Assembly (NCBI GenBank): GCA_035543335.1
Contig: DASZZH010000025.1
Coordinates: forward strand, 62,001-126,000
Length of the DNA: 64,000 bases
DNA from: Burkholderiales bacterium
GTDB lineage: Bacteria; Pseudomonadota; Gammaproteobacteria; Burkholderiales; JAHFRG01
Direction: 5' to 3'
The position numbers and the translations under genes are program-made. The stretch's first letter is position 1; each line of letters starts with the position of its first letter. The notes under the pieces were generated by a model. That model did no database searches. It was not told where the DNA came from and saw only the letters and a list, made by a program, of their open reading frames with translations. Positions 13,845 through 44,605 of the stretch are shown one piece after another.

Positions 13845-14849
13845 ATGCGTATCTTCGTATACGAGCATATTACCGGCGGCGGCCTGCTTGACCAAGCGCT
13901 GCCTGCCCGGCTGGCGCGCGAAGGCGGCGTGATGCTCACGGCGCTGCTGCGCGACCTGGCCGATATTCCCGATGTGGAAATCATCACCAGCCGTGACCCG
14001 CGCCTGCCCGCGCTCAACCAACCCGCAAAAGTCCTGGTTCCGCAAAACGCTGAAGAAGCGGCTTTTGTTTTTCGCGATGGCGTGGCAATGGCGGATGCGG
14101 TGTGGCCGATCGCCCCGGAAACCGCTGGGGTTCTGGAGCGCCTGAGCCGCACTGTGCTGGAGCAGGACAAAATTTTGCTTGGCAGTCATCCCGAAGCGGT
14201 GCGGCTTGCCGCAAGCAAGCTTGCTACCTCGCGGCGGCTAGCTCGCCACGGGATTTCCGCGGTTCCCACGCACGCCGTAACCGACCGCATTTCCGATACG
14301 GCGGAAGGCTGGGTGGTGAAACCCGATGACGGCGCGGGTTGCGGCGACACCCATTGGTTTTCCACGCTTCAAGCGGCCCAACACTGGCTGTCCCGGGCGA
14401 CCGGTGCGGAGCATTACGTGTTGCAACCGTTCATTCCTGGAAAAGCGTTGAGCCTTTCCCTATTGTGCCGCGCCGGCCAGGCTTTTCTTTTGAGCTGCAA
14501 TTGCCAGCGCATCGTGATCGAGGACGATAGCTTTCATTTTTTAGGCAGCCAGGTCAATGCGGCGCCCGATTCACAAGGTGCATTTGCCGATTTGGCGCAG
14601 CGTGTAACCGCCGCCATTCCGGGGTTGTGGGGTTATGTCGGCATTGATCTGGTGCAAAGCGGAACGGGCGTGGTGGTGATGGAAGTCAATCCCCGGCTCA
14701 CCACGTCTTACGCCGGATTGCATCAAGCGCTCAACTGCAATCCCGCCGCGCTGGTGTTGCGCCTGCTCGACGAACGGAGCCCGCTGCGTCTGCCCGAATT
14801 TTCCGCGTCCAGAGTTGATGTGGAAATCGAGGCCGCGCATGCCGTATAA
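13845..14849 (+). CDS. mfnD: ATP-grasp glutamate ligase, MfnD-like
   Basis: 334 residues opening MRIFVYEHITGGGL, the hallmark of the COG1821 ATP-grasp family to which MfnD belongs. MfnD joins L-glutamate to tyramine in methanofuran synthesis. The ATP-binding part shows GWVVKPDDGAGCGDT near residue 155 and the metal site VVVMEVNPRLTTSYAG near 275. In bacteria methylofuran is reported to contain tyrosine in place of tyramine, so the acceptor may be tyrosine. It overlaps mfnF by 11 bases. The assignment rests on the N-terminal signature plus linkage to mfnF, mfnE and mfnB. Confidence 0.83.
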   Translation: MRIFVYEHITGGGLLDQALPARLAREGGVMLTALLRDLADIPDVEIITSRDPRLPALNQPAKVLVPQNAEEAAFVFRDGVAMADAVWPIAPETAGVLERLSRTVLEQDKILLGSHPEAVRLAASKLATSRRLARHGISAVPTHAVTDRISDTAEGWVVKPDDGAGCGDTHWFSTLQAAQHWLSRATGAEHYVLQPFIPGKALSLSLLCRAGQAFLLSCNCQRIVIEDDSFHFLGSQVNAAPDSQGAFADLAQRVTAAIPGLWGYVGIDLVQSGTGVVVMEVNPRLTTSYAGLHQALNCNPAALVLRLLDERSPLRLPEFSASRVDVEIEAAHAV

Positions 14850-15894
14850 AACCCCGGATAACTCCATCATCGGGTGGGATGTAGGCGGCGCGCACCTTAA
14901 AGCGGCGTTGATCGATGGCAAGGGCCGCGTGCATAAAGTCCTGCAACTGCCTTGCCCTCTGTGGCAGGGCTTGCCGCATCTTGAGCGGGCGCTGTCGGAG
15001 GCGCTGAACCAATTGGACGAACCCGATGCGCTGCACGCTCTCACCATGACCGGGGAACTTGCGGATATCTTTCCCAATCGCGCAGCCGGCGTGGCCGCCA
15101 TTATTAATCTGGCGCAAAAAAAATTGCAGACCGTGAAAGTTTTCGCCGGAGGCAAAGGTTTTGTGCGCCCGGCGCAGGCGAAGAAGCTCGCAGAAGACGT
15201 GGCCTCGGCCAACTGGCTGGCGAGCGCTGCATTCGCCGCTGCCCGGGTCAAAGAAGCGCTGTTGGTGGACATCGGCAGCACCACTACCGATTTTATCCTG
15301 CTCAAGAATGGAAAAGTGCAAGCGCGCGGATTCAATGATCACCGGCGCATGGTTTACGGCGAGCTGGTGTATGCCGGTGTTACGCGCACGCCGGTGATGG
15401 CGGCGGTCTCCCGCGTGCCGTTTGCCGGGGAGTGGGTGGGCGTGATGGCGGAACTGTTCGCGACGATGGCGGATGTTTATAGACTCAGCGGCGAGCTGCC
15501 CGAAGCGGCGGACCAGATGCCTGCGGCGGATGGCGGAGAAAAAACCGTGCGCGGCAGCGCCAGAAGGCTGGCGCGCATGGTGGGCCTGGATTTGGAATCC
15601 GCGCCGCTCGCGGACTGGAAAGGTTTGGCCGCTTATATCGCTGAGCGGCAATTACAGCGGCTGCTCGCAGCCTGCGTGCGCCAGTTGTCTTCAGGAGTCG
15701 TCGGCGACAAGGCGCCGCTGATAGGCGCGGGCGTGGGGCGCTTTGTGGCGCGGAAGCTGGCTCTGCGCTGCAGCCGCGGCTATCGTGATTTTTCGAGCCT
15801 GGTGCAATCCCGTTTGTCCGATGCGGAATGGGTGAATGGCTGCGCTCCCGCGGTGGCAGTGGCGCTGCTGGCAAGAAGCGCGGCAGGCGCATAA
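14839..15894 (+). CDS. mfnF: Methylofuran synthesis protein MfnF (H4MPT-linked C1 pathway, hydantoinase/oxoprolinase-like)
   Basis: About 351 residues from the ATG at 14839 (MPYKTPDNSIIGWDVGG), which overlaps the mfnD stop. The protein has the actin-like ATPase/oxoprolinase fold: the phosphate-1 motif IIGWDVGGAHLKAAL at the start and LLVDIGSTTTDFILL near residue 150. Archaeal MfnF couples the aminomethylfuran diphosphate to the tyramine-glutamate part, forming the ether of methanofuran. With mfnD, mfnE and mfnB in the island the same job is likely. Seven bases after the stop begins a 401-base TIR-bounded repeat element. Confidence 0.88.
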   Translation: MPYKTPDNSIIGWDVGGAHLKAALIDGKGRVHKVLQLPCPLWQGLPHLERALSEALNQLDEPDALHALTMTGELADIFPNRAAGVAAIINLAQKKLQTVKVFAGGKGFVRPAQAKKLAEDVASANWLASAAFAAARVKEALLVDIGSTTTDFILLKNGKVQARGFNDHRRMVYGELVYAGVTRTPVMAAVSRVPFAGEWVGVMAELFATMADVYRLSGELPEAADQMPAADGGEKTVRGSARRLARMVGLDLESAPLADWKGLAAYIAERQLQRLLAACVRQLSSGVVGDKAPLIGAGVGRFVARKLALRCSRGYRDFSSLVQSRLSDAEWVNGCAPAVAVALLARSAAGA

Positions 15895-15900
15895 AATTAG

Positions 15901-16301
15901 GGAACCTCTAATTATGTCCTTCGTGAGCCGCGTTGCGGTCAAAATGCGGATGGCTGCAAGGCGCGCGACGAAGGTCGTAGTTCGGGCTACGAAGCCGAGG
16001 AGCGCAACGATGCAGACACCGCAGTTTGCCGCAACCCGCAAGGGACGGCTGCCGCGACACGGTCAGCGAAGCTTGGGGTGCGGGAGCGGCAGCATGAGCA
16101 CCCCGTTTAACGGTGTCTCTTGCGGCAGCTTGCGCCCCTTCCCGCGCCACGCTTCGCGAGACCGAGTCCGGGGTGCCTTCCCGGGCGGTCTGCTTTGTCG
16201 CTCAGCTTGCCAATGGGGCCCACCATTGGCGGCGCGTCGCTTCGCGCATCCCATCCCGGAAAGCCACCGTCGCAGCCACGCAGGACATAATTAGAGGTTC
16301 C
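15901..16301. mobile_element. TIR-bounded 401-bp non-coding element, copy 1
   Basis: Bounded by perfect 20-base inverted repeats: GGAACCTCTAATTATGTCCT at 15901-15920 and its complement at 16282-16301. The interior has no convincing gene, but shares long blocks with a second copy at 31201-31569, such as ACGAAGGTCGTAG, GCGGTCTGCTTTGTCGCTC and CGCGCATCCCATCCCGGAAA. This is the layout of a MITE-like non-autonomous element. No clear target duplication is seen. The right end stops four bases before the pabB ATG, so the terminal repeat forms the pabB leader. Confidence 0.8.
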
Positions 16302-16305
16302 TCTC

Positions 16306-17691
16306 ATGCCGCGCATCGCCGAACTCCCGTATTGCGAAGACAGCGCCCGACTGTTCGAGGCGGTGGCCGATTTGCCGTGGGCGGTGTTTCTCGACAGCGG
16401 CAGGCACTTCGGCTCGCAATCGCGTTACGATATTCTGGTGGCGGAGCCCTATGCCACGCTGGTCACGCGCGGCAAAGTGACCGAAATACGCCATAACGGC
16501 GCAAGTGAGCTTTCCCCCGAAGACCCTTTCATCCTGCTTAAGCGCTATCTCGAGCCTGCGCAGGAAAACCATTGCGGTTTGCCTTTCAGCGGCGGAGCAC
16601 TGGGTTATTTCGGCTATGATCTGGCGCGCCGGCTGGAACGGCTGCCGGCGATTGCCGAAGACGCGGAGAAACTCCCGGAAATGGCTATCGGCATTTACGA
16701 CTGGGCGCTGGTGGTGGACCATCACGCGCGCCGCAGCTGTCTGGTAAGCGGGGAACGCGACCCGGAAACCCGGAAAAAATGGGATGAGCTGGCGGCGCGT
16801 TTCAGCCAGCCGGCGGAAGAACGCCATCGCGCGCCGTTCCGGATAACGAGCAAGATCGTTTCCAACCTCACGCACGAGCATTATGCGCAGGCTTTCAAGC
16901 GTATTCACGACTACATCCGCGCCGGCGATTGCTACCAGGTGAATCTCGCGCAAAGATTTTCCGCCGCCGCCGCAGGCGATCCGTGGCTAGCTTACCAGGC
17001 GCTGCGCATCATCAATCCGGCGCCGTTTTCCGCTTATCTCAACACCCCTTACGCGCAAATCCTGAGCGCTTCCCCCGAGCGTTTTCTCCAACTCAGGGAC
17101 CGTCAAGTCGAGACTAAACCGATCAAGGGCACACGGCCGCGCGCCGGGCATCCGCGCCTGGATGCGGCGCTCGCCGAAGCGCTGCGCGAAAGCGAGAAAG
17201 ACCGCGCCGAAAACCTGATGATTGTGGATTTGCTGAGAAACGACCTCGGCAAATCATGTGAAACCGGCTCGGTCAAAGTGCCGAAACTGTTTGAGGTGGA
17301 GGGCTTCGCCACGGTGCATCATCTGGTGAGCACGGTGACCGGCACACTGGCAAAAGACAAAAGCGCGCTGGATTTGCTGCGCGGTTGTTTTCCGGGAGGC
17401 TCGATTACCGGCGCGCCGAAACTGCGCGCGATGCAGATTATCGAGGAACTCGAGCCGCACCGCCGCGGCGTGTATTGCGGCACCATCGGCTACATCGGCT
17501 TTGACGGCGGCATGGACAGCAACATCGTCATCCGCACCCTGGTTTATTCCGCGGGCACCATACGCTTCTGGGCGGGAGGCGGCATCGTCGCTGATTCGCG
17601 CATGGAAGACGAGTACCAGGAAACTTTCGACAAAGCCGCGGCTATGCTGCGGCTGCTTGAGCAGATTTTGATGGCCGATGTGGGTCATTAG
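16306..17691 (+). CDS. pabB: Aminodeoxychorismate synthase component I
   Basis: 461 residues of the chorismate-utilising family (PabB/TrpE). It converts chorismate plus ammonia to 4-amino-4-deoxychorismate, the precursor of 4-aminobenzoate for folate and for H4MPT. Conserved blocks are IRAGDCYQVNLAQRF near 205, PIKGTRPR near 265, FPGGSITGAPKLRAM near 365 and the C-terminal AGGGIVADSR. The start lies four bases after the mobile-element end, and AGAGG within that end could serve as the ribosome site. Placement between mfnF and mfnE suggests a supply dedicated to cofactor synthesis; pabA and pabC are not in the window. Confidence 0.95.
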   Translation: MPRIAELPYCEDSARLFEAVADLPWAVFLDSGRHFGSQSRYDILVAEPYATLVTRGKVTEIRHNGASELSPEDPFILLKRYLEPAQENHCGLPFSGGALGYFGYDLARRLERLPAIAEDAEKLPEMAIGIYDWALVVDHHARRSCLVSGERDPETRKKWDELAARFSQPAEERHRAPFRITSKIVSNLTHEHYAQAFKRIHDYIRAGDCYQVNLAQRFSAAAAGDPWLAYQALRIINPAPFSAYLNTPYAQILSASPERFLQLRDRQVETKPIKGTRPRAGHPRLDAALAEALRESEKDRAENLMIVDLLRNDLGKSCETGSVKVPKLFEVEGFATVHHLVSTVTGTLAKDKSALDLLRGCFPGGSITGAPKLRAMQIIEELEPHRRGVYCGTIGYIGFDGGMDSNIVIRTLVYSAGTIRFWAGGGIVADSRMEDEYQETFDKAAAMLRLLEQILMADVGH

Positions 17692-19118: not shown

Positions 19119-20165
19119 ATGAACTTGCGTGCCATTACTTCAACCCATTCCGCCTCAGCAATTTCAATCGCAATTCTTTTATTTACTGCAAATAGTTCTT
19201 GGGCCGCTTCGCTTGCTGATTATGCGCAATGCGCGCAGATTGCCGACGAGGCCGAACGCTTGAAGTGTTATGATGCGCTCACAAAAGAAGCCCCCGACTT
19301 GCCTGCACCGGCAACTGAAGCAGAATCACTGTCCGCAGCAGAGCAAATAGCCAAGACCATCACAGCTACGCCATTGGCGCAGCGCTGGGAGCTCGATGAC
19401 GAAACCAAAGGAGGGACGTTCAATCTTCGTCCGCATAAACCGAATTACTTCCTGCCGGTCCGCTACAGCTCATCGCCGAACAACCAGCCCTTCAGCCCGT
19501 CGAGCGGTCCCGTGCCGCAGCAACCGGCGCTGGATCATGCCGAAGTCAAGTTCCAGCTGAGCTTCAAAACGAAAATAGCAGAAAATCTGTTCTCAGATCG
19601 TGCCGATCTGTGGTTCGCCTATACGCAGCAGTCACACTGGCAGGCATACCAGGAGCATCCCGCATTCCGGGAAACCGATTACGAGCCCGAAATCATGCTG
19701 GTGTTCCGCACCGATTACGATTTGCTCGGAATGAAAGGGCGTTTTATCAATTTCGGCCTGGTGCACCAATCGAACGGCCGCCGCGGGGTATTGGAGCGCG
19801 GTTGGAACCGGGCCTATCTCCAGTTCGGCTACGAACGCGGCGGTTTCGTATTGATGGTCAGGCCATGGTGGCGAATTCCCGAGAAGACTTCGAGCGACGA
19901 CAATCCGGATATCTCAAGCTACCTGGGATACGGCGACGTGCTCGCCGCCTACAAACGGGGTGAGCAAACCTATTCCCTGCTGCTGCGGAACAATCTGAGT
20001 GTCAATAACAACCGCGGCGCGGTGCAGTTTAGTTGGAGCTTCCCGATCTGGAGCAGATTGAAAGGCTACGTGCAACTGTTCTCGGGCTACGGCGAGAGCC
20101 TGATTGACTATAATCATCGCCAAAACACCATCGGGATCGGGGTCGTATTGACTGACTGGATGTAG
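19119..20165 (+). CDS. pldA: Outer membrane phospholipase A
   Basis: 348 residues with a signal peptide (to about residue 30, ANSSWAAS) followed by a soluble stretch and a C-terminal beta-barrel of the PldA family. The catalytic block LVHQSNGRRG near residue 215 carries the His and Ser of this esterase. Alternating aromatic strands continue to a barrel-type C-terminus. It hydrolyses phospholipids that reach the outer leaflet of the outer membrane and works as a calcium-dependent dimer. The N-terminal extension with YAQCAQIADEAERLKCYD is like that seen in other proteobacterial members. The accessory region begins just after it. Confidence 0.92.
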   Translation: MNLRAITSTHSASAISIAILLFTANSSWAASLADYAQCAQIADEAERLKCYDALTKEAPDLPAPATEAESLSAAEQIAKTITATPLAQRWELDDETKGGTFNLRPHKPNYFLPVRYSSSPNNQPFSPSSGPVPQQPALDHAEVKFQLSFKTKIAENLFSDRADLWFAYTQQSHWQAYQEHPAFRETDYEPEIMLVFRTDYDLLGMKGRFINFGLVHQSNGRRGVLERGWNRAYLQFGYERGGFVLMVRPWWRIPEKTSSDDNPDISSYLGYGDVLAAYKRGEQTYSLLLRNNLSVNNNRGAVQFSWSFPIWSRLKGYVQLFSGYGESLIDYNHRQNTIGIGVVLTDWM

Positions 20166-20247
20166 AAAGTGTTGTTAATTGACCTAACTGACTTATTTTG
20201 TACCAGGTTAATAGATAATTTCAATCTGGGTGAGAAAAGAGTTCGTT

Positions 20248-20376
20248 ATGGCGAAAAAGATATTTACCCCTGAACAAATCTTCGCCAAGCTGCGCCAGAT
20301 TGAGATGAGCGAGCGCTCTAACCTGTCAATCCAGAGCGGACGCGCGCAAGCGCGCGCCGCTGATTTCGAACGTTGA
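20248..20376 (+). pseudogene. IS3-type transposase OrfA stub
   Basis: The first ~20 codons read MAKKIFTPEQIFAKLRQIEM, the characteristic N-terminus of IS3-family OrfA (helix-turn-helix transposase). After codon 20 the frame runs into an attC site and ends at 20376. No OrfB and no right end follow. It is a dead fragment left where the cassette array joins the chromosome. The 80 bases between pldA and this stub are AT-rich and may hold the old IS end. Confidence 0.72.
20314..20374 (+). other. attC site 1 (interrupted at its core)
   Basis: Starts with an inverse core site ending CTCTAAC (20316-20322). A near-perfect hairpin with one extrahelical base (AGCGGACGCGCGC / GCGCGCGCCGCT) follows, then GAACGTT. 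The core should continue as AGGTG, but a 158-base TIR element is inserted after GTT and the core resumes at 20533 as GTTAGGTG. The structure matches integron attC sites. Confidence 0.72.
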
Positions 20377-20532
20377 GGCTGTGCAAAAAAACTCTTTGAA
20401 TTTACCTTTTGGGTTTGAATGACAAGTCGACCTCGTAGAACGGCCTACAAGCATCGATCGGACACCAGGGAATGGCAGAGCACCATCGATTTTTGATATG
20501 TGCGACCCCACAGTGGGTTTTTGCACAGCCTC
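20375..20532. mobile_element. 158-bp TIR element inserted in an attC core
   Basis: Ends are inverted repeats GAGGCTGTGCAAAAA (20375-20389) and TTTTTGCACAGCCTC (20518-20532). It is flanked on both sides by GTT, which looks like a three-base target duplication of the attC core G/TTAGGTG. There is no transposase gene, so it is non-autonomous. The same core is intact at 23523-23529, giving an empty-site comparison within this window. Confidence 0.75.
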
Positions 20533-20563
20533 GTTAGGTGTCAGACGAGGCGAGTACGCGAAA

Positions 20564-20953
20564 TTGCGAAGTGCATTAGAGTTGCATGATTCCCGCGTGA
20601 GCCGCATAGAGCTGTTGGATGGCCTTGCGATGATCTATTTTTCACACGCCTACGTTCACAAGTCAAAGGGGACACCAGGCAGAGACCCCGGCACGAGCTG
20701 GAGTCAGGAAGCGAAGTTAGTTCTGTGGGAGGCGACCGCATCGGCGCCGTTGCCACTGCTGCCCAATACGATATCCGAAGGATTTTTGGAAGTTGGGGGT
20801 ATTAGACACGAACTCATTCCTCTGCCATTTAAACGTAAAGTTGGTGCAAAGCTCTACCTGACATTTATTGACGGCGTCCAAACGGAAATTGCCGGTAATC
20901 GGCCGTTGATAGAATTGCTGGGTACACCGATTTACCTGGAGGATTTTTCATGA
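20564..20953 (+). CDS. Cassette-borne hypothetical protein, copy A
   Basis: About 129 residues if read from TTG at 20564. An ATG further up lies inside the inserted TIR element and would not be original. The protein (LELHDSRVSRIELLDG ... IPLPFKRKVGAKLYLTFIDG ... LLGTPIYLEDFS) has no motif I can name. It has a near-identical partner at 23554-23943: the two cassettes align over 421 bases with nine differences I can count and no gaps. The stop falls two bases before attC 2, as is usual in integron cassettes. It is likely a cytoplasmic single-domain protein; function unknown. Confidence 0.7.
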   Translation: MRSALELHDSRVSRIELLDGLAMIYFSHAYVHKSKGTPGRDPGTSWSQEAKLVLWEATASAPLPLLPNTISEGFLEVGGIRHELIPLPFKRKVGAKLYLTFIDGVQTEIAGNRPLIELLGTPIYLEDFS

Positions 20954-20954
20954 C

Positions 20955-21037
20955 ACCTAACCCGACGGTGAACACGGACTTGCAAACAGCGGCGCTGCGC
21001 GTGCTGTTTGCAAGCCGATTACCTTAGTTCGTTAGGC
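20955..21037 (+). other. attC site 2
   Basis: An 83-base site with inverse core ACCTAAC (20955-20961) and core GTTAGGC (21031-21037). The imperfect hairpin pairs ACTTGCAAACAGC with GCTGTTTGCAAGC around a GC-rich tip. Spacing and core sequences match integron attC sites. It closes the copy-A cassette. Confidence 0.85.
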
Positions 21038-21050
21038 ATCTAAGACACAC

Positions 21051-21743
21051 ATGCCATCACTACCGCTCAAACAACTCGGCGCCGAAGCGATCGGCACGTT
21101 TTGCCTTGTCTTTGCCGGCACGGGTGCCATCATCATCAACGACATCAGCGGCGGGGTCATTTCACACGTTGGTATCGCGCTCACGTTCGGCCTCGTTGTC
21201 CTCGCAATGATCTACGCCATCGGCGATATCTCTGGCGCACACATAAATCCCGCTGTCACGATTGCCTTTTTTGCCGCTCGGCGTCTTCCCGCTCGCTTCG
21301 TCTTGCCGTACATCGCCAGTCAAAGCCTCGGTGCGTTGCTCGCAAGCGGTTTGCTCCGTTTACTCTTCTCGACACAGGCCAACCTCGGCACGACAATCCC
21401 TGCCGATTCCATCTGGCAATCGTTTGTGCTGGAGTTCATCCTCACTTTCATCCTCATGTTCGTCATCCTTGGAGTATCAACTGGCGCTAAAGAGAAAGGG
21501 TTAACCGCCGGAATCGCTGTCGGAGCCGTCATTGCACTGGAAGCCCTCTTTGCTGGCCCGATATCGGGCGCCTCAATGAATCCGGCGCGATCACTCGGCC
21601 CCGCTATCGTCTCATTGCAATTTTCAAGCCTATGGATTTATTTGGCCGCACCTGTTCTTGGTGCGATTGCTGCTGTTTCTGCCTGCCGGTGTGTGCGTGA
21701 AACCGGTTGTTGCACATCAGCGGAAGCCCAAGGAACACAATGA
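21051..21743 (+). CDS. MIP-family channel (aquaporin/AqpS-like)
   Basis: 230 residues with six membrane segments and the two pore motifs of the major intrinsic protein family, SGAHINPAVT near residue 65 and SGASMNPARS near 170. The ATG lies only 14 bases after the attC 2 core. It overlaps arsC as ATGA, so the pair is one unit in a cassette. In Sinorhizobium an AqpS-ArsC pair detoxifies arsenate: ArsC makes arsenite and AqpS lets it out. The same logic is inferred here. The C-terminus has a short Cys-rich tail (CRCVRETGCC), which is unusual for the family. Confidence 0.9.
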   Translation: MPSLPLKQLGAEAIGTFCLVFAGTGAIIINDISGGVISHVGIALTFGLVVLAMIYAIGDISGAHINPAVTIAFFAARRLPARFVLPYIASQSLGALLASGLLRLLFSTQANLGTTIPADSIWQSFVLEFILTFILMFVILGVSTGAKEKGLTAGIAVGAVIALEALFAGPISGASMNPARSLGPAIVSLQFSSLWIYLAAPVLGAIAAVSACRCVRETGCCTSAEAQGTQ

Positions 21744-22171
21744 CCGCCCAAACGCCAAAACGCCTGCTGTTTGTCTGCGTCGAAAACGCCAATCGTAGTC
21801 AAATGGCCGAGGCCTTTGCGCGCATTCACGGTGGCACACACATTGAAGCGTACAGTGCTGGGTCGCGTCCTGCCGGTCAAATCAACCTCAAAGCAATCGC
21901 TGCAATGCAAGAACTTGGTTACGATCTTACGCAACATCATTCAAACTCACTGTCCGATATTCCGAATGTGGAATATGATTTTGTCGCAACGATGGGCTGT
22001 GGTGATGCGTGCCCATTCGTCCGCGCCAAGCGACGCGAAGATTGGAATATTCCAGACCCAAAGCATATGGAACTCGACGAGTTTCGCTCCGTACGCGACG
22101 ACATCGAGCAAAAAGTCAAAAGCGTCCTCACCACGTTGTTGCAAGAAGACGTCGCCCCCAAAGATGCCTAA
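21740..22171 (+). CDS. arsC: Arsenate reductase, low-molecular-weight phosphatase type
   Basis: 143 residues from the ATG at 21740, overlapping the channel gene. The N-terminal P-loop CVENANRS (Cys13 and Arg19, the CX5R signature) and the general-acid region NIPDPKHM near residue 112 place it in the LMW protein tyrosine phosphatase family. Pairing with the MIP channel and the MGCGDACPF block (extra cysteines for disulfide relay) favour arsenate reductase over a protein phosphatase. The stop lies inside the inverse core of the next attC (GCCTAAC). No arsR or arsB is present in the cassette. Confidence 0.88.
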   Translation: MTAQTPKRLLFVCVENANRSQMAEAFARIHGGTHIEAYSAGSRPAGQINLKAIAAMQELGYDLTQHHSNSLSDIPNVEYDFVATMGCGDACPFVRAKRREDWNIPDPKHMELDEFRSVRDDIEQKVKSVLTTLLQEDVAPKDA

Positions 22172-22190
22172 CCAGGCGATGCACCCGACC
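22166..22190 (+). other. Truncated attC site 3
   Basis: The left half of an attC: inverse core GCCTAAC (22166-22172) followed by CAGGCGATGCACCCGACC. The right half is missing, cut by an IS3-type fragment starting close to 22190. It shows that the channel-arsC pair was once a complete cassette. Confidence 0.72.
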
Positions 22191-22440
22191 CCAATCTTCC
22201 CCCGATAAAGTTGACACCCTGAGCTAACGAGCTTGGAGGTGTGAGATGGCGAGAGCTGGGCTGAGGAAGATCAACCGGTATAGCGAGGAATTCAAGGCCA
22301 CGGCGGTGAGGTTAAGCGATCTGCCGGAGGTGCTAATTCAGGATGTGGCGGCGGGATTGCGCACAAGCGGCAAATATGGTTTATTCGTTTGGCATCCAGT
22401 CTATTTTTCGGGTATTGGCGAGTTTGTTTGGATAGGTTAA
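22191..22440 (+). pseudogene. IS3-type transposase OrfA stub, second fragment
   Basis: From 22246 the frame reads MARAGLRKINRYSEEFKATA and continues VRLSDLPEVLIQDVAA, the N-terminal helix-turn-helix of an IS3-family OrfA, preceded by GGAGGTG and about 55 bases of IS end. After ~36 codons the similarity stops and unrelated AT-rich DNA follows to a stop at 22440. OrfB is absent. It is a different OrfA type from the stub at 20248, so at least two IS insertions have decayed in the array. Confidence 0.72.
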
Positions 22441-22449
22441 TCCAGGCTG

Positions 22450-22526
22450 TTTTCATGAAATCAGCGTACACTTGCCAATCTGGATTAGGCACCACTTTTG
22501 GTGTCCATTTTTAGTTAGAGCGCGCA
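22450..22526 (+). repeat. Repeated junction sequence, copy A
   Basis: Shares about 40 bases (TTTTCATGAAATCAGCGTAC and on to GGATTAG) with 23936-24032. It then shares a shorter CCACTTTTGG and GTGTCCATTT, ending in an attC-like core GTTAGAGCGC (22514-22523). Copy B has about 20 more bases in the middle. It stands where an attC left half would be expected, so it may be a mobile-element remnant joined to a surviving core site. Confidence 0.55.
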
Positions 22527-22600
22527 TGGCACTATGCGGCCCCTGGGACACCCGCATGTCGATCCGTAGTGTCGGCGACCTCAAACAAGGGAGATACGTT

Positions 22601-22885
22601 ATGCGCATGATCCTTCCTGGCGTGTTTTCCCTGTTGTTCCTAACAGCCTGCGCCAACTCTTCTGGCGTGTTCCGCGTAGATGACAATACTTACCAAGTTT
22701 CTACTCGAGCAACCTGGGAGCTAGGCGGCCGAGCAGGCGCGAAGCGTATGGCACTGGAAGAAGCGACTCGCCACTGTGATGCACAGCGCAGAGCTCTACG
22801 TGTTATTAAATCCACCGAAAACTATGGTCACTTCGAAGGTGGTACAGTCGACCTTGTTTTCAGCTGCGAACAGGCAAAGCAGTGA
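22601..22885 (+). CDS. Small cassette lipoprotein
   Basis: 94 residues from the ATG at 22601, chosen for the AAGGGAG site ten bases upstream; longer in-frame starts lack a ribosome site. The N-terminus is a lipoprotein signal (MRMILPGVFSLLFLTAC with the lipobox Cys at 17). The mature part has two cysteines (RHCDAQ, FSCEQA) that could form a disulfide. I do not recognise a family beyond small cassette-borne lipoproteins. Its cassette is bounded by the core at 22514 and attC 4. Confidence 0.72.
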   Translation: MRMILPGVFSLLFLTACANSSGVFRVDDNTYQVSTRATWELGGRAGAKRMALEEATRHCDAQRRALRVIKSTENYGHFEGGTVDLVFSCEQAKQ

Positions 22886-22902
22886 CGCTAGCAGATGTCG
22901 CG

Positions 22903-22971
22903 CTCTAACCGCTCGTTCGAGAGCGGACGCACGGCCATGCGGCCGCGCGCCGCCCAACGCGAACGTTAGGC
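22903..22971 (+). other. attC site 4
   Basis: A 69-base site: inverse core CTCTAAC (22903-22909) and core GTTAGGC (22965-22971). The interior is GC-rich and folds with GTTCG pairing to CGAAC near the ends. It closes the lipoprotein cassette. Confidence 0.82.
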
Positions 22972-22983
22972 AGTGAATTGGCT

Positions 22984-23451
22984 ATGGAAAACTTTTCAAA
23001 ATTGGAACCGCCTGTCAGAGACCGACTTATCGGGCATATCGACCGAAGATGGAGACAGCTTTATGAGCTTGAAAAAGAATGGGGCGAAAGAGCTTTAAAG
23101 TATCTGTTTCTTACAAATTCTGGTGGTGCTATTGCGACGTTAAGCTTTTTGGGCGCATACGATAAGGCGCTGAATTTGGTCAGCACAAAAATCGCTCTCT
23201 TTCTTTTCGTGTTCGGCGTTTTCCTCGCTGGCGTCTCAACAGCAAAAACATTTCATCATATGTCGCGCTTGCTCAAGGAATACAAGCTTGGAGTTGAGCA
23301 TTTTTATAGTGACAAGGTTTCGTGGGACTACTTGATTGAAGAAGATAAAAAGCGAGCCGAAGCCAGCTTCATGGACTATGCGATTCCATATGCATCATTT
23401 GGGTGTTTTGTCGGTGGAAGCATTGCAGGTGCCATCGCACTTTTTGCCTAA
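22984..23451 (+). CDS. Cassette membrane protein of unknown function
   Basis: 155 residues from ATG at 22984 (a TTG two codons earlier is possible). An N-terminal charged helical part (RDRLIGHIDRRWRQLYELEKEW) precedes two hydrophobic segments around residues 50-90 and a third at the C-terminal end (FGCFVGGSIAGAIALFA). The pattern resembles small membrane proteins common in integron cassettes; no function can be given. The stop codon lies within the inverse core GCCTAAC of attC 5, a compact cassette layout. Confidence 0.72.
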   Translation: MENFSKLEPPVRDRLIGHIDRRWRQLYELEKEWGERALKYLFLTNSGGAIATLSFLGAYDKALNLVSTKIALFLFVFGVFLAGVSTAKTFHHMSRLLKEYKLGVEHFYSDKVSWDYLIEEDKKRAEASFMDYAIPYASFGCFVGGSIAGAIALFA

Positions 23452-23529
23452 CGCATCGTTCGAGTCGTTCGCTTCGCTCACTGGGACTGGCCGCCTCCGG
23501 CGTCCAGCCCCTCAACTCAAACGTTAGGT
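23446..23529 (+). other. attC site 5
   Basis: An 84-base site with inverse core GCCTAAC (23446-23452) and core GTTAGGT (23523-23529). A strong hairpin pairs GGGACTGGCCGC with GGCGTCCAGCCC. Its right end is the intact version of the core that is interrupted by the TIR element at 20375-20532. Confidence 0.87.
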
Positions 23530-23553
23530 GTCAGACGAGGCGAGTACGCGAAA

Positions 23554-23943
23554 TTGCGAAGAGCATTGGAGTTGCACGATTCCCGCGTGAGCCGCATAGA
23601 GCTGTTGGATGGCCTTGCGATGATCTATTTTTCACACGCCTACGTTCACAAGTCAAAGGGGACACCAGGCAGAGACCCCGGCACGGGCTGGAGTCAGGAA
23701 GCGAGGTTAGTTCTGTGGGAGGCGACCGCATCGGCGCCGTTGCCCCCGCTGCCCAATACGATATCCGAAGGATTTTTGGAAGTTGGGGGTATTAGACACG
23801 AACTCATTCCTCTGCCATTTAAACGTAAAGTTGGTGCAAAGCTCCACCTGACATTTGTTGACGGCGTCCAAACGGAAATTGCCGGTAATCGGCCGTTGAT
23901 AGAATTGCTGGGTACACCGATTTACCTGGAGGATTTTTCATGA
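23554..23943 (+). CDS. Cassette-borne hypothetical protein, copy B
   Basis: About 129 residues from TTG at 23554, near-identical to the copy-A protein at 20564-20953. The whole cassette from the core GTTAGGTG to the stop is 421 bases in both. The few changes include conservative codons and a handful of replacements (for example Tyr to His in KLHLTF). Both copies keep an open frame, which argues that the protein is under selection or that the duplication is recent. Unlike copy A, no normal attC left half follows the stop; a repeated junction sequence does. Function unknown. Confidence 0.7.
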   Translation: MRRALELHDSRVSRIELLDGLAMIYFSHAYVHKSKGTPGRDPGTGWSQEARLVLWEATASAPLPPLPNTISEGFLEVGGIRHELIPLPFKRKVGAKLHLTFVDGVQTEIAGNRPLIELLGTPIYLEDFS

Positions 23944-24032
23944 AATCAGCGTACACTTGCCAATCTGGATTAGACCCCACTTTTGGGGTAATTAATTGCA
24001 CCTTTTCGTGTGTCCATTTCTAGTTAGGGCGC
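23936..24032 (+). repeat. Repeated junction sequence, copy B
   Basis: Homologous to 22450-22526 over TTTTCATGAAATCAGCGTAC through GGATTAG, then with extra bases ACCCCACTTTTGGGGTAATT (a small palindrome) before GTGTCCATTT and the core-like GTTAGGGC (24023-24030). It replaces the attC left half expected after copy B. Confidence 0.55.
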
Positions 24033-24038
24033 ATTGAC

Positions 24039-24419
24039 GTGCGAACTGCAGCCGCAATTTTCCTAGTATTCGGGTTTGCCTATCTGGCCTGGGATATCAG
24101 TCTCATCGTTGCTCACGGCGTTCAACTTGGCTCCGGATTGATGGTCGTCTTCGCAGCCGCGGTGTTGTATCAAGGTTATGCGCTTTGGAAGCGGGACCCT
24201 CGTGTCCGGTGGAGTGCGCTCGTGAGTGCTGTGGCGATTGCGGGCACCTGCGCGTACATTGCCTCAGTTTTCATTGCATCGCCGTTTCCAGAGAGCCTGC
24301 TGCATTTGCCGGGCGAGGTGTTGCCGCTGTTTGGCAGTGTGGTAGCGCTGAGCATCGCATTCGGGGTGGCGTCAGTTGTGCTTATCCTGCCTATCAGGCG
24401 TCGCCCCAATGCGCCCTAA
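24039..24419 (+). CDS. Cassette membrane protein (four-helix), unknown function
   Basis: 126 residues from a GTG start at 24039. Four hydrophobic segments (FLVFGFAYLAWDISLIV, LMVVFAAAVLYQGYALW, VSAVAIAGTCAYIASVF, VVALSIAFGVASVVLIL) leave little soluble sequence. It ends in an Arg-rich cytoplasmic tail. No family motif is recognised. The stop is inside the inverse core GCCCTAAC of attC 6. It is a typical integron-borne small membrane protein. Confidence 0.68.
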   Translation: MRTAAAIFLVFGFAYLAWDISLIVAHGVQLGSGLMVVFAAAVLYQGYALWKRDPRVRWSALVSAVAIAGTCAYIASVFIASPFPESLLHLPGEVLPLFGSVVALSIAFGVASVVLILPIRRRPNAP

Positions 24420-24494
24420 CCACGCGGTCAACACGGACGCCCACCGGCGGCGCTTCGCGCCTTGGTGGTCGCCGGTTACCTTGATCCGTTAGCA
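24413..24494 (+). other. attC site 6
   Basis: An 82-base site with inverse core GCCCTAAC (24413-24420) and core GTTAGCA (24488-24494). The hairpin pairs GCCCACCGGCGGCGC with GCGCCTTGGTGGTCGC around a TTC tip. The core departs slightly from GTTRRRY but the fold and spacing are right. Confidence 0.8.
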
Positions 24495-24507
24495 GCCAAA
24501 GGACGGT

Positions 24508-25137
24508 ATGGAAGAGTTCATCAATGTAATTACTTGGCAACACCTCGCTTTCATATTTGCGTTGGTGTTCATAGCCCTATTCCGTCAACCGCTTTCTGAT
24601 CTTATTCGCCGAATCACGAAAATTGATAAAAAAGGATTAACTGCTGGTCCGGCTCCGGAAGCGCAGCGAGAGAAATCTGATCCAGAGGCTGTGCAGCAAC
24701 TTCTTGATGTTGTAGGAAACTCAATCGTAATTACGGACATTGAGGGTCGTATTAAGAACGAGCTAAAAGCAAAAGGTCTCAGTACTGAGGGGGACAGCGT
24801 TAAAGTTCTCATTAGGCATTTGGTCGGTACGCAACTACTTTTGTCTTTTGAGCAAATACACAGCCTTATATTCGGCAGTCAGATTTTTTTGCTTAAAAAG
24901 CTAAACGAGGTTGCCGGGCAAGGCAGGCCTTTGTCCTTTGTTAACGGTCATATTGATCACGTTAAGACGCTATATTCAAACGCGCTTGGTGATTGGTCTC
25001 ACAACCAATATCTCGAATTTATGTATGGTCGTTTACTTATCATTCGTCATGGCGACCAAATTCATATTACGAATCTCGGCGTAGAATATTTAACATGGGT
25101 AGCACGTAATGGGCGTAGAGAAGACAATCCACTATAA
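24508..25137 (+). CDS. Cassette protein with N-terminal membrane anchor, unknown function
   Basis: 209 residues with an AAAGGA site before the ATG. One hydrophobic segment (LAFIFALVFIALF, residues ~12-25) would anchor it. A charged linker and a mostly alpha-helical soluble domain follow (QQLLDVVGNSIVI to YLTWVARNG), the last part resembling a winged-helix-like end (GRLLIIRHGDQIHITNLGVEYL). I do not recognise a family with certainty. Codon use is more AT-rich than in the H4MPT genes, in line with a captured cassette. Confidence 0.7.
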   Translation: MEEFINVITWQHLAFIFALVFIALFRQPLSDLIRRITKIDKKGLTAGPAPEAQREKSDPEAVQQLLDVVGNSIVITDIEGRIKNELKAKGLSTEGDSVKVLIRHLVGTQLLLSFEQIHSLIFGSQIFLLKKLNEVAGQGRPLSFVNGHIDHVKTLYSNALGDWSHNQYLEFMYGRLLIIRHGDQIHITNLGVEYLTWVARNGRREDNPL

Positions 25138-25138
25138 G

Positions 25139-25221
25139 GCTGCTAATAAATCGCTCAACCCGGACGTGCAAAAGTGGCGCTTCGCTCTGCTTTTGCTCTC
25201 TGGTTAGCTCAATCGTTAGAG
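25139..25221 (+). other. attC site 7
   Basis: An 83-base site: left end GCTGCTAAT (25139-25147), complementary to the GTTAGCAGC core of attC 6, and core GTTAGAG (25215-25221). The interior pairs GCAAAAG with CTTTTGC around TGGCGCTTCGCTC. The left core is AAT rather than AAC, so it may be weak. Confidence 0.7.
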
Positions 25222-25225
25222 CGCT

Positions 25226-25852
25226 ATGCCGAAGAAAACTGACCTGACGAAGTTCCGTACGTCATCGCTCAAGGATGTCACTGAGCTTCGTAATCGTTTT
25301 AAGGCTTTAGTCGCAGGGCAACCAGCGCCTTCGGTCGACGATCTGCGCTGGTTCACATATATGACGGCAGTGGAGCTACATGCTATCTGGGAAAGGTATG
25401 CGGAAGGTCGTCTGGTAGTGGCGCTAAATCACTCACCGGCGCACTTTCTCGCGCAGAATTCAGTAAAGGGAGTAAAAAAGGTGCCTGCGGGTCTCGCCGA
25501 ATATGTCGTGCGTGGTGGTTCAAAGTACTTCAACTTTCGATCCATTGACGACCTTAACGACAAAGCTAACAAGTTGCTCTCAAGTGCTCACAATCCGTTT
25601 GCGCCCCTGACAAAAGTCCACAAAGATCATTTGGATTCGCTAGCCTCGGTCAGGAACCTGATTGTGCACAAAAGCGACGCAGCGAAATCTTCTTACAAGA
25701 CGAATCTTGGCAAAGTCTTCGGCTTTAAGTCCGCACCTTCTCCCGGTGAGTTTTTGGACTCCATTGACCACCGTACAAGTAGTCCATGCAGAGGGCAGCA
25801 GAGAATCTGGACCTTTTTTCATTATGTCAAGGATGCCATCAACAAGAGCTGA
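25226..25852 (+). CDS. HEPN-like cassette protein
   Basis: 208 residues, starting five bases after the attC 7 core. It is mostly alpha-helical, and near residue 142 carries RNLIVH, the R-x4-H signature of HEPN-fold proteins, within SLASVRNLIVHKSDAAKSSYK. An upstream helix reads TYMTAVELHAIWERYAEGRL. Many HEPN proteins are RNases in toxin-antitoxin or phage-defence systems; others only bind nucleotides or RNA. No partner nucleotidyltransferase or antitoxin gene lies in the cassette. The HEPN call rests on the motif and helical context alone. Confidence 0.65.
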   Translation: MPKKTDLTKFRTSSLKDVTELRNRFKALVAGQPAPSVDDLRWFTYMTAVELHAIWERYAEGRLVVALNHSPAHFLAQNSVKGVKKVPAGLAEYVVRGGSKYFNFRSIDDLNDKANKLLSSAHNPFAPLTKVHKDHLDSLASVRNLIVHKSDAAKSSYKTNLGKVFGFKSAPSPGEFLDSIDHRTSSPCRGQQRIWTFFHYVKDAINKS

Positions 25853-25854
25853 GC

Positions 25855-25932
25855 ACTCTAACCTGCGCTTCCACCCGACGCGCGAAAGCGCCGCTTCGCG
25901 CTCACTCGCGCGGGTCACCGCGCACGTTAGGC
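25855..25932 (+). other. attC site 8
   Basis: A 78-base site with inverse core ACTCTAAC (25855-25862) and core GTTAGGC (25926-25932). The GC-rich interior folds (CGACGCGCGAAAGCG against CGCTCACTCGCGCG). It is the last recognisable attC; none follows the next gene. Confidence 0.82.
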
Positions 25933-25956
25933 ACCGAATCCAAAAGGAATTCGACA

Positions 25957-26352
25957 ATGAGAACTGTCATTCGTCAAACCGTGGTATTACCGGCTTCGGC
26001 TGAAGCACTTTTTGAAATGTATTTAGATCCCTCCGCACACGCAGCCATTACGGGTGCGCGAGTCGTTATTGGAGACGAACCAGGTGCCAAGTTCCAGGCT
26101 TTCGACTGCGCTTTGACCGGCACGATTCTTAAAGTGGTAAGGCCGAGGCTGATTGTGCAGTCGTGGCGGTCCACCGAATTTAAGTCGGAGAATCCGGATT
26201 CCACTTTGATACTGTACTTCTCGCCGGAAGGAGATAAAGGGCGAATTGACCTGATTCACCTGGATGTGCCCGACCATGACTACGATGGGGTAACCCAAGG
26301 CTGGGAGAAATACTACTGGGTGCCTTGGCGCAAATATTTGGAAAGCCGGTAA
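25957..26352 (+). CDS. SRPBCC/AHSA1-family protein
   Basis: 131 residues from the ATG at 25957, with AAAAGGA 10 bases before; the open frame upstream runs through attC 8 and is not coding. The START/Bet v1-like pattern is clear: RQTVVLPASAEALFEMYLDP at the start, ITGARVVIGDEPGAKFQAFD in the middle, and a C-terminal helix GWEKYYWVPWRKYLES. Members bind hydrophobic ligands or act with Hsp90; the substrate is unknown. It follows the attC 8 core and has no attC after it, so it is the terminal cassette or the array is truncated here. Confidence 0.85.
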   Translation: MRTVIRQTVVLPASAEALFEMYLDPSAHAAITGARVVIGDEPGAKFQAFDCALTGTILKVVRPRLIVQSWRSTEFKSENPDSTLILYFSPEGDKGRIDLIHLDVPDHDYDGVTQGWEKYYWVPWRKYLESR

Positions 26353-26379
26353 AGGAATGGGGTCGGGGGCATTTTTTCA

Positions 26380-26418
26380 TTGACACTTCGGCTATTCTGG
26401 CTATAATCTAGCCAGAAT
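26380..26418 (+). promoter_or_regulatory. Promoter and palindromic operator of the RelE/antitoxin module
   Basis: TTGACA (26380-26385) and TATAAT (26402-26407) are separated by 16 bases, a near-consensus sigma-70 promoter. A perfect ten-base inverted repeat, ATTCTGGCTA and TAGCCAGAAT (26394-26403 and 26409-26418), covers the -10 box and the toxin start codon. Expected transcription starts about 5 bases before the ATG at 26417, so the message would be almost leaderless. The palindrome is the natural site for antitoxin autorepression. Confidence 0.82.
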
Positions 26419-26719
26419 GCGTTTCGAGATCATTTTGGCCCCTGAGGCGGTTGAGGATTTTCGAGCATTGAAAGCCAACCCCCGCGCAGCCGTCCGGGAG
26501 GCTCTCGAAACACATCTTCGCCACGAACCGACGAAGACGAGTCAAAGTCGAATTAAACGGTTGCGTGGCTTGTCACGCCCTCAGTATCGCCTAAGGGTGG
26601 ATGAAGTACGCGTCTTTTACGATGTCACAACGACGACCGTAGAGGTTTTGGCGATCGTACCTAAATCGGAGGCCGCATTATGGCTGGCGAGATTCGGAAA
26701 TCCCGGAGGAAGGAAATAG
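26417..26719 (+). CDS. RelE/ParE-family toxin
   Basis: 100 residues of the RelE/ParE fold: FEIILAPEAVEDFRAL at the start, KRLRGLSRPQYRLRVDEVRVFYDV in the middle with the Arg-rich core of mRNA interferases, and a C-terminal KSEAALWLARFG. RelE toxins cut mRNA in the ribosome; ParE poisons gyrase. The RLRVDEVRVFYDV pattern favours RelE. The toxin comes first and overlaps the antitoxin gene by 40 bases. It lies just beyond the cassette array and could stabilise it. Confidence 0.87.
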   Translation: MRFEIILAPEAVEDFRALKANPRAAVREALETHLRHEPTKTSQSRIKRLRGLSRPQYRLRVDEVRVFYDVTTTTVEVLAIVPKSEAALWLARFGNPGGRK

Positions 26720-26952
26720 CGTTATCGGAAATCAAGGATGATTTGTCCCGTTATCTTCGAGAAGCGGAGAAACAGGAAATCCTGATTACCCGTCACGGAA
26801 AACCCGCAGGGGTTCTAATTGGCTTTCAGTCGGAGGATGATTGGTTCGACTACCGACTGGAGAACGACCCTCGTTTTCTTGAACGTGTCGAGAAGGCGCG
26901 CAGGAGCCTGCGCGCAGGTCACGGAGTCAAAATCGAGAATCTGAAAGCTTAG
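26680..26952 (+). CDS. Phd/YefM-like antitoxin
   Basis: 90 residues: an N-terminal DNA-binding part (IALSEIKDDLSRYLREAEKQEILITRHGKPAGVLIGF), typical of the Phd/YefM family, and an acidic-basic C-terminal tail that would wrap the toxin. It would neutralise the RelE-like toxin and repress the shared promoter at the palindrome 26394-26418. Its ATG lies inside the toxin frame, so its level depends on translation of the toxin cistron. The toxin-first order is less common for this family. Confidence 0.85.
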   Translation: MAGEIRKSRRKEIALSEIKDDLSRYLREAEKQEILITRHGKPAGVLIGFQSEDDWFDYRLENDPRFLERVEKARRSLRAGHGVKIENLKA

Positions 26953-27009
26953 AGTCTGTAGCAGAATTAGCTACGTGTGTGCCAGGACAGCTGCATCGCG
27001 TTCGTGGGC

Positions 27010-28398
27010 TTACTGAAATTGAGTGTCGCGGCTGTGGGTAAGCAGCACGTTCAGCAAATTGTCCTGGAAGTTAGTGTTGCCGGTGAGCCGTTCATGGGTC
27101 TCGCACAAAGAAAAGGAAAACGCCAGCGGAAAAAACGAGTAATCATGCCGCGGCACCGCGGGGTTGAGGGCATCGCGTCCCAGCAACGAAGGCTTGGTGA
27201 CCCGGCCGTCCCCCGGCTCCAGCATCAGACTCTCGTAAGGCACGCCGGGGAGAGGCTTGCTGATCTCGCTGGGAAATAACCGGATTACGGATTCGCCGTT
27301 GACCTCTTCCACCAGCAGGCGCGCCGGAGTGAGCTCGCAATCGCCGCCGAACACCACGTAGCGGATCGGTACTTCATCAACTCGTATTGACAAAGACCAG
27401 ACGAATCTTCTCGCCCGCTCCAGGTTCTTCTCGAAATAATGCTGCAGCGTCGTCACGTATTTTTCGCCTTGCTGCGGATCGGCGAGTCGGTCTTTTATCC
27501 GCCGGGTGACTTTGGGGTCGAACACCGACCATTCGAAACGCTGCCAGATTTCCCGATCGAACAGATCCCGGTCCAGGGGCTGGCCTTTGGCGGTGATGAG
27601 CCAGTCCGTGATCGGATGGGGAAAGAGCTGGTAGACGCTGGGCATGGTGGCGAGCACTTCGGTGGGAATGCTGCCCAGGCCTACCTGGTGTCCTTTCAGA
27701 AAGGAATGCAGCGAACTCACGGAGCCCAGGTTGGGAGTGCCCAGCATGATGAATCTGCGCACCCGCTGCGCGCCGTGATGATTGGCAGGAAAATCGTTGC
27801 CGTCGAGCACGTCCATGGTGCCGTAGCGCAAGTAGTAGCGCACCACCAGCCCGCCCATGCTGTGAGCGATGATGTCCACCTTCAGCTGCGGATCGTTGTA
27901 GTCGCGCCTGATCTGCTCGATGAGCCGATCCAGCTGGCGCGCGGTCTGCACGTTGTCCTGGCGCCAGTCGTGGGGAAAAAGATAGTAACGGGGCCCTTTG
28001 GTCTTAACCGGAACTCCGGGCTCGCCCCGCGTATAACCTCCATACCGGCTCAAGGTCTTGATGATTTCCCCATAGAAATCGCGCCCCAGTGCACCCTCGG
28101 TGATGGCGTAGGCTTCCAGCGATGAAGGCTTGGGAAGCAGGGTATCCGGGTGGATTTCCAAGCCCAGGTCTTCGTATTTGCCGAATACGATGTCGAGCGT
28201 CGAGCCCGGCCAGACTTCTTTTCCCGTGGCGCGGTCGCGCAGCTTGGAGCCGAACAGGCCGGGCACCACGATCACCGGCGGCTGCTCGGTATTCCTTTCG
28301 CTCATCTGGTACAGGCGTTTGAAGTCGGGCCGTATCACTTCCGTGCAAGCCGCAAGCGACAGGGAGAGCAGCAGCACGGGAACCAGCAAAGGATGCAT
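27010..28398 (-). CDS. LCAT-like lipoprotein acylhydrolase
   Basis: 462 residues with a lipoprotein signal (lipobox LAAC, Cys18) and an alpha/beta hydrolase domain of the lecithin:cholesterol acyltransferase type. It has PPVIVVPGLFGSKLRD near residue 40, YYLFPHDWRQDN near 140, and the nucleophile elbow IIAHSMGGLVVRYYLRYG near 180. It probably acts on phospholipids or other esters at the cell surface. It starts 15 bases after the mfnB stop on the same strand, so it may be read from the cofactor operon though no link to C1 chemistry is apparent. Confidence 0.85.
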   Translation of the reverse strand: MHPLLVPVLLLSLSLAACTEVIRPDFKRLYQMSERNTEQPPVIVVPGLFGSKLRDRATGKEVWPGSTLDIVFGKYEDLGLEIHPDTLLPKPSSLEAYAITEGALGRDFYGEIIKTLSRYGGYTRGEPGVPVKTKGPRYYLFPHDWRQDNVQTARQLDRLIEQIRRDYNDPQLKVDIIAHSMGGLVVRYYLRYGTMDVLDGNDFPANHHGAQRVRRFIMLGTPNLGSVSSLHSFLKGHQVGLGSIPTEVLATMPSVYQLFPHPITDWLITAKGQPLDRDLFDREIWQRFEWSVFDPKVTRRIKDRLADPQQGEKYVTTLQHYFEKNLERARRFVWSLSIRVDEVPIRYVVFGGDCELTPARLLVEEVNGESVIRLFPSEISKPLPGVPYESLMLEPGDGRVTKPSLLGRDALNPAVPRHDYSFFPLAFSFSLCETHERLTGNTNFQDNLLNVLLTHSRDTQFQ

Positions 28399-29712: not shown

Positions 29713-29790
29713 CCACAGAGGTCACAGAGATCATAGAGCAAGAACTCGCAAGCTTATTTTGTCTACGTGCCCTCTGTGTACTCTGTGGTT
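29713..29790. repeat. Heptad-repeat palindrome between DHPS-like and DUF447 genes
   Basis: Left arm CCACAGAGGTCACAGAGATC (from 29713) and right arm CCCTCTGTGTACTCTGTGG (29770-29789) pair and are made of about seven-base CACAGAG units. It is a relative of the elements at 3137-3233 and 4926-5033 with A for G at one position of the unit. The spacer is AT-rich. Confidence 0.7.
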
Positions 29791-31195
29791 ATTTAACTTT
29801 TGCTTTTTGTCTTTTCGCTTCAAGAGTCGTGCCTGCTGCTTTCTGCTGATTCAAATCTTCGGGTTTACGCTCCACCGCGCAACCCCAGTCCAGTTCCTCG
29901 TCCTGATTGTAACGCTTGCCGAGCTGCCAGGCGATTTGCGCGCGCGCCAGTTCCACGCCCAGATAAAACGCGTGCGCCGGGTCGTTTTGCAAGTCGAGCA
30001 GAGGAAACAGCGCGAAGGGGTCGGCGGCCACCTGCATCCCGTCGCGGTTGTAGATGTGTATACCCTGTTCGCTGATCTGAATGCGGTAGCTCGGGTCCTT
30101 GATGGCGCGGGACAATTCGGCGATTTCCTGCGGCGTGTCGGGAAACGGCTTGCGCGAGTGCAAGGTGAGCAGCGCGGAAGAAAAATCGCGCGGCAGACTC
30201 CCGGCTTCGCGCGCGGCATACAGCATGCGCCGCGCTGCATCGGCTTCGCGCACCGCGCGCCGGGCGTGCGGGCTCACTTCGGTGGTGAGGATGTGGGTGA
30301 TCCGCAATTCGGAAATAACGCCCATCAGCAGCGCGTTGATGCCGGTGGTGTCGGCGTCGGTGAGCTCGGTGAGGTTGCCCACGCCCATCATGATTTCAAT
30401 CTCGGGGTGGCGGCGCCGCAATTCGTGATAGCGCACCAGCGAATCGGTGAAACCGAAATGAATCGGGTCGAGGACCGAATCGGTGATGAAGCGGCGCTTG
30501 CGTTTCATCATGCCTTCCATCGCGCGTTCCAATGAAGCCAAATCTCCGGGCTGTGCCGGAATCAGCACCGGAATGGAAGCGACTTCATCGGCGACCCACA
30601 GCGTGTCTTCCTTGAGGCTCAGCAGATAATCCGCGCCGGCTTTGCCGCCGCGCAATAATTCCTCCGGCTCGACCGAATCGACGCTTACCGCAAAACCCGC
30701 TTTTTTCAGCGCGGCGACCGCTTCTTCAAGGTGGGGAAACGGCGTTTCCGGCAGGCAGCCGAGATCGATGACATCGGCGCCGTCCTTGCGGTAGCGTTCC
30801 GCGCGCTTGAGGATTTGCTCGATGCTTGCCTGCGGCGCGTCAACGATTTCGGCGAAGATTTTCACGTCGTAGCGGCTCAAGTCCTGTTCCCTGCCTTTTT
30901 TTCCGAAAAACTGTGGGAGGTCTTTGAGTTCTTCCGGCCCGCGCGCAACCGGCACGCCGTAGCGTTTTGAAAGCGCGTCGAGATCGCCGCGGCAGCGGCC
31001 CGGCACCATGATGCGGGTCGAGTTGCCGGGGTTGGGCAGGCGCCGCAGAATCAGGTCTGCGGTCATCAATCCGGCGACGCTGATGCCGATATTGAGCACG
31101 TCGTAACCGAACTCGCTCGGATGCATTTCCGCCAGCACCTTGTGCAGGCTTTTTTCGGCAAGCTTGCCGGTAAGAAAAAGAATATGTTCGGGCAT
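29789..31195 (-). CDS. Dihydropteroate synthase-like protein (DUF6513 type)
   Basis: 468 residues from the ATG at 31195. The open frame extends much further upstream, but only through a mobile element. The N-terminal part (MPEHILFLTGKLAEKSLHKV) is the DUF6513 domain. The C-terminal TIM barrel resembles dihydropteroate synthase, with GADVIDLGCLPETPFPH near residue 140 and MMGVGNLTELTDADTTGIN near 270. In archaea a DHPS-like protein joins the pterin to ribofuranosylaminobenzene phosphate in H4MPT synthesis; that role is inferred here. The start lies five bases from the end of element copy 2, whose terminal repeat forms the leader. Confidence 0.85.
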   Translation of the reverse strand: MPEHILFLTGKLAEKSLHKVLAEMHPSEFGYDVLNIGISVAGLMTADLILRRLPNPGNSTRIMVPGRCRGDLDALSKRYGVPVARGPEELKDLPQFFGKKGREQDLSRYDVKIFAEIVDAPQASIEQILKRAERYRKDGADVIDLGCLPETPFPHLEEAVAALKKAGFAVSVDSVEPEELLRGGKAGADYLLSLKEDTLWVADEVASIPVLIPAQPGDLASLERAMEGMMKRKRRFITDSVLDPIHFGFTDSLVRYHELRRRHPEIEIMMGVGNLTELTDADTTGINALLMGVISELRITHILTTEVSPHARRAVREADAARRMLYAAREAGSLPRDFSSALLTLHSRKPFPDTPQEIAELSRAIKDPSYRIQISEQGIHIYNRDGMQVAADPFALFPLLDLQNDPAHAFYLGVELARAQIAWQLGKRYNQDEELDWGCAVERKPEDLNQQKAAGTTLEAKRQKAKVK

Positions 31196-44577: not shown

Positions 44578-44605
44578 ACCGGAAAGCACATCGTCACGCA
44601 TGTGT

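Follow-up and report, generated by a model that had tools for sequence, protein, structure and literature searches.

Terminal inverted repeats of IS5-derived MITEs as probable replacements of ribosome-binding sites in a Burkholderiales genome

Mobile elements bring promoters. The region upstream of pabB in the window (the whole stretch of 64,000 nucleotides that was analysed) raised the question of whether the tip of a small mobile element may bring a ribosome-binding site as well. A sequence-only reading had proposed a family of short elements with terminal inverted repeats (TIRs), represented by two full copies and a solo end, with ends abutting start codons. The TIR pattern search confirmed the family: all five named ends were present in the window, against 0.06 matches expected from shuffles of the 64 kb. 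The TIRs were found exactly at 15901/16301, 31201/31569 and 44607-44625 (19-bp core, 0 mismatches to GGAAYCTCTRATTAWGYCC). The solo end had been placed at 44606-44625; the end itself stood and its start was corrected to 44607, where the core begins. About 47 bp of the element end were left at this locus.

The elements and the genes adjoining them are as follows.

15901-16301: full MITE copy 1, 401 bp, between the H4MPT-pathway gene at 14839-15894 and pabB; flanks TTAG (left) and TCTC (right)
15901-15919, plus strand: left TIR of copy 1, GGAACCTCTAATTATGTCC
16283-16301, minus strand: right TIR of copy 1, reading outward GGACATAATTAGAGGTTCC, with the Shine-Dalgarno (SD) core GAGGT; GAGG to the pabB ATG is 8 nt
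31201-31569: full MITE copy 2, 369 bp
31201-31219, plus strand: variant TIR of copy 2, starting GGAATCTCT; toward the minus-strand gene it reads CAGAGATTCC, with a weakened GAGAT
31551-31569, minus strand: distal TIR of copy 2, standard GGAACCTCTGATTAAGTCC
44579-44625 (approximate left border), minus strand: solo MITE end, TIR core 44607-44625, GAGAT variant
16306-17691, plus strand: pabB (aminodeoxychorismate synthase component I), ATG 4 nt beyond the TIR, with a start that both sister genomes conserve
29789-31195, minus strand: DUF6513/dihydropteroate-synthase (DHPS)-like gene (TIGR00284), ATG 5 nt beyond the TIR, with a start that the sister genomes conserve
44628-45317, plus strand: exported protein, function unassigned, ATG 2 nt beyond the solo end, with a start that the sister genomes conserve

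Hence, an end adjoins an ATG at all three window sites, as had been reported. That two of the three targets are cofactor genes, as had been remarked, is a neighbourhood effect, the window harbouring an H4MPT-type C1-pathway cluster. The H4MPT-linked C1 genes near pabB comprise TIGR03123 at 14839-15894, TIGR00284/DUF6513 at 29789-31195 and a dihydromethanopterin-reductase-like flavoprotein gene at 31602-32153.

The whole genome (2,246,682 bases in 41 contigs) contained 121 TIR ends at no more than two mismatches, the reversed control pattern gave no matches in it, and BLAST with copy 1 returned 76 matching stretches. These whole-genome figures come from pattern searches; flanks and gene starts were counted on 869 kb fetched around the copies, which hold 119 ends in 54 paired copies and 11 solo ends. 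The paired copies span 48-787 bp and cluster at 274-276, 354-371, 386-402, 481-495 and 539-604 bp. Their flanks favour TTAG, CTAA, TTAA and CTAG, that is YTAR, which was present at 57/119 flanks, and identical 4-bp flanks were kept in eight of the 54 pairs. Three TIR ends (G000:C38:81033, C36:76035 and C3:60052) directly adjoin tRNA-like genes, judged by eye from the flanks.

YTAR is the documented IS5 target (PMC10359306). Among named genomes, mostly of beta- and gammaproteobacteria, at least 120 stretches contain the exact 19-mer, and many foreign copies had matching YTAR flanks. Elements of 1149-1180 bp found elsewhere (L128, L150, L178 and L166) encode IS5-family transposases matching NF033581 (E 7e-95 to 1e-101), PF01609 and PF05598, and share the exact 19-bp TIR and YTAR flanks (one flank in L166). 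The TIR identity was 19/19 at both ends of L128, and one end was exact in L150 and L178, with two and four mismatches, respectively, at the other. The exact TIR and 4-bp YTAR target are thus common to the MITEs and to IS5 insertion sequences (NF033581-type; PMC10359306), whereas the transposase sits in the full-length relatives, the copies described here carry none and none was found in their genus. The IS5_4 transposase was not detected in three genomes of the genus, while the control was positive in 6/14 reference genomes; an autonomous copy in the window genome was rejected on the same ground, no transposase being found there. Since TIR and target are shared with transposase-bearing elements and no transposase was found in the genus, the copies are, on sequence grounds, non-autonomous MITEs of IS5 descent, either mobilised from elsewhere or fossil. 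Searches for plasmid and viral carriage of the element gave no match. No order-wide spread was seen, the pattern being patchy and present in only 9/399 genomes.

The preference for start codons anticipated from the window was borne out in the wider count. With gene starts called across the 869 kb by a home-made finder, 13/119 ends had a start 2-8 nt outside, against 1.7% per end (about 2 of 119) expected from non-disruptive YTAR sites (p = 1.5e-7). Among the 25 ends with a start within 40 nt, 13 fell at 2-8 nt against 19% expected (p = 2e-4). All 13 start-adjacent genes begin with ATG; most ends (106/119) lie away from starts. The pattern was replicated in the two sister genomes G001 and G002, where 7/50 ends had an ATG with a long ORF within 10 nt, and at the loci of other hosts (11/173, a few entries being G001 copies counted twice), both above the following bins. 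Each of the three sets also showed an excess when ATG alone was counted, independently of gene calls (p = 0.002, 0.037 and 0.029, with the G001 rows removed from the third). YTAR flanks were kept at 4/13 ends by starts and at 53/106 elsewhere, a non-significant difference.

The targets are mostly conserved genes: pabB, the DUF6513/DHPS-like gene, serC, comEC, xseB, an FtsX-like permease gene and others, with further ends before genes for an EVE-like protein (named from sequence), a WrbA-like flavoprotein, a thioesterase and a PHP-domain protein. The trmL gene, missed by the gene finder, starts 2 nt outside one end, and a 12-nt TIR relic lies 5 nt before the queA start. The element before trmL is common to the window genome and G001; trmL of the window genome (G000:C7:20258 onward) gives a good reading over about 95 residues, beyond which it diverges in a frameshift-like manner. 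In the sisters and other hosts, the targets include rpsH, ssb, rlmE, panC and purL-, purH-, dprA- and ubiB-like ORFs, names given from sequence except for those profile-tested, including S8 and SSB; rpsH and ssb are among the start-adjacent targets in a sister genome.

The TIR read outward ends AGAGGTTCC (...TTAATCAGAGGTTCC) and contains GAGGT, the five-base SD core, complementary to the canonical 16S tail. This core was retained at 10 of the 13 start-adjacent ends, where the predicted anti-SD pairing is -6.5 kcal/mol, stronger than in 83% of host genes (a canonical anti-SD is assumed for the host). The GAGG-to-ATG spacing was 6-12 at start-adjacent ends, overlapping the 5-11 of the host. GAGAT takes its place at the remaining three ends (two in the window), with a predicted pairing of only -2.9, near the host median. 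GAGAT was over-represented at starts (3/13 vs 5/106 elsewhere, p = 0.04), and no better conservation of GAGGT was observed there (10/13 vs 94/106). The earlier suggestion that the TIR supplies the leader, and perhaps the ribosome site, stood for the leader, in which the TIR usually supplies the only SD-like motif; as for the ribosome site, the motif is the weakened GAGAT in two of the three window copies, and the window is therefore not the best showcase. In folding predictions, the full read-through RNA pairs both TIRs and almost fully buries the motif (P unpaired 0.00-0.18), and shortened leaders free it in most cases tested. It is conjecture that the burial might be relieved by cleavage, by transcripts that start internally or where the distal TIR has been lost. 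An outward promoter inside the element was rejected: the single promoter-like match in 15850-16320 lies in the flank and ends before the element.

In the two sister genomes, none of the three window sites holds an insertion, and the start codons are conserved. Upstream of the DHPS-like gene, the element now separates a GGAG motif from the start. The exported-protein gene lacks the GGAG/GGGGG leader motifs of the sisters and has the solo end where they would be; for pabB, the sisters have no strong leader motif. In G002, the ribosomal spc operon contains a 274-bp copy (L305:6916-7189) in the rpsN-rpsH spacer, 2 nt ahead of the ATG of rpsH, and the leader no longer has the GGGAGAG motif present in the window genome. 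In G001, one copy was cut down to about 36 bp and still precedes a start, and another was reduced to CAGAGGTTCC alone before the permease gene, the ortholog of which in the window genome has a full copy. At the EVE-like gene of G001, apparently the other TIR alone remains, without an SD motif.

Altogether, these results suggest that the TIR has repeatedly been co-opted as a ribosome-binding site, tolerated or kept by selection, a reading to which we assign a probability of about 0.72; ribosome recruitment by the TIR and its retention through selection are what we infer. YTAR, the IS5-type insertion target, is common at gene boundaries and contains TAA/TAG stop codons. A copy inserted into the narrow gap immediately before an ATG would place its TIR as a ribosome-binding site at normal spacing, the displaced native signal, now dispensable, could be lost or stranded beyond the element, and later deletion of the remainder would leave a solo end. 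Whether the element "rewires" expression, as had been proposed, is a separate matter: tolerance and retention would account for the observations just as well.

The ends found at gene 3' ends bear on the first rival, in which insertions at boundary YTAR sites break nothing, the TIR motif stays idle and initiation is SD-independent. Among the 119 ends, 3'-end placements outnumber start placements; a stop codon lies flush against the TIR at 15 ends (5.3% expected, p = 0.0017), and at 12 more it lies inside the TIR (10) or overlaps it by one base (2). Therefore, insertion at gene boundaries is the general rule, and the start placements are its most interesting part. These stops speak for pure tolerance, as do the three GAGAT ends and the clear SD motif in only 27% of host genes, so that starts here may need none. 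However, the elements peak at 2-8 nt (13 ends vs 5 at 11-20) where YTAR sites show no peak, and several sites, rpsH in G002 among them, have lost their native motif or had it displaced. Pure tolerance is unlikely.

Slightly less likely still is an insertion preference, by which the transposase would favour open, AT-rich sequence beside start codons irrespective of translation. In its favour, unrelated hosts show the pattern too, and in several of them an intact YTAR flank immediately precedes the ATG; however, a preference for leaders alone would not yield the SD spacing window, and copies are fewer further upstream, where native motifs would survive. That errors in calling starts, or repeats wrongly joined in draft assemblies, produced the pattern is very improbable: G001 and most other named genomes with the 19-mer are MAGs and the starts came from a home-made finder, but ortholog starts are conserved in the sister genomes at eight sites, the S8 and SSB starts agree with profile starts, the ATG-only excess recurs in three separate sets and the elements are short.

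Co-option of the TIR as a ribosome-binding site may have a further side. Read inward, the TIR has stop codons within its first 15 nt in two of the three frames, and the target often duplicates a stop codon. It is conceivable, and in our view doubtful, that the tips are adapted to gene boundaries, either end closing the preceding gene or opening the following one, and that paired TIRs in read-through RNA might work as a switch, hiding or exposing the ribosome site.

Several known systems resemble these MITEs in part. Correia/NEMIS, RUP and ERIC are likewise short non-autonomous TIR repeats that lie mainly between genes and may affect neighbouring mRNAs; in contrast, the available text of PMC2229807 describes promoters, IHF sites, RNA processing and ORF fusions and no TIR-borne ribosome-binding site. 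MITEAba12 of Acinetobacter also acts outward on its neighbours, and its TIR gives the first codons of a gene in some copies, but outward promoters were proposed rather than an SD motif, and "ribosome" does not occur in the main text (PMC6382973). Insertion sequences of Amoebophilus asiaticus similarly lie so close to starts that the native leader has no room, whereas the authors invoke IS promoters and co-transcription (PMC3196728). Within the accessible parts of the open-licence PMC literature, no description of a recurrent TIR-supplied ribosome-binding site was found.

In sum, these IS5-derived MITEs are ordinary, but they have a by-product that is unusual, recurs and has statistical support: tips that stand in place of ribosome-binding sites and most likely function in that way. 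A transposon tip recurrently supplying the ribosome-binding site of housekeeping genes in several hosts would be a little-described route of translation-signal replacement.

Elsewhere in the window, the stretch 20160-27010 holds almost no genes with host-like scores and contains small one-off ORFs, among them a MIP aquaporin-like ORF (21051-21743) and an AHSA1-domain ORF (25786-26352). Two attC-like folded sites lie at 20955-21037 and 23446-23529, and shuffles also yield 0-4 such sites; the stretch is possibly an integron cassette array, which is only a lead. It is bordered by a phospholipase A1 family gene (PF02253) at 19119-20165.
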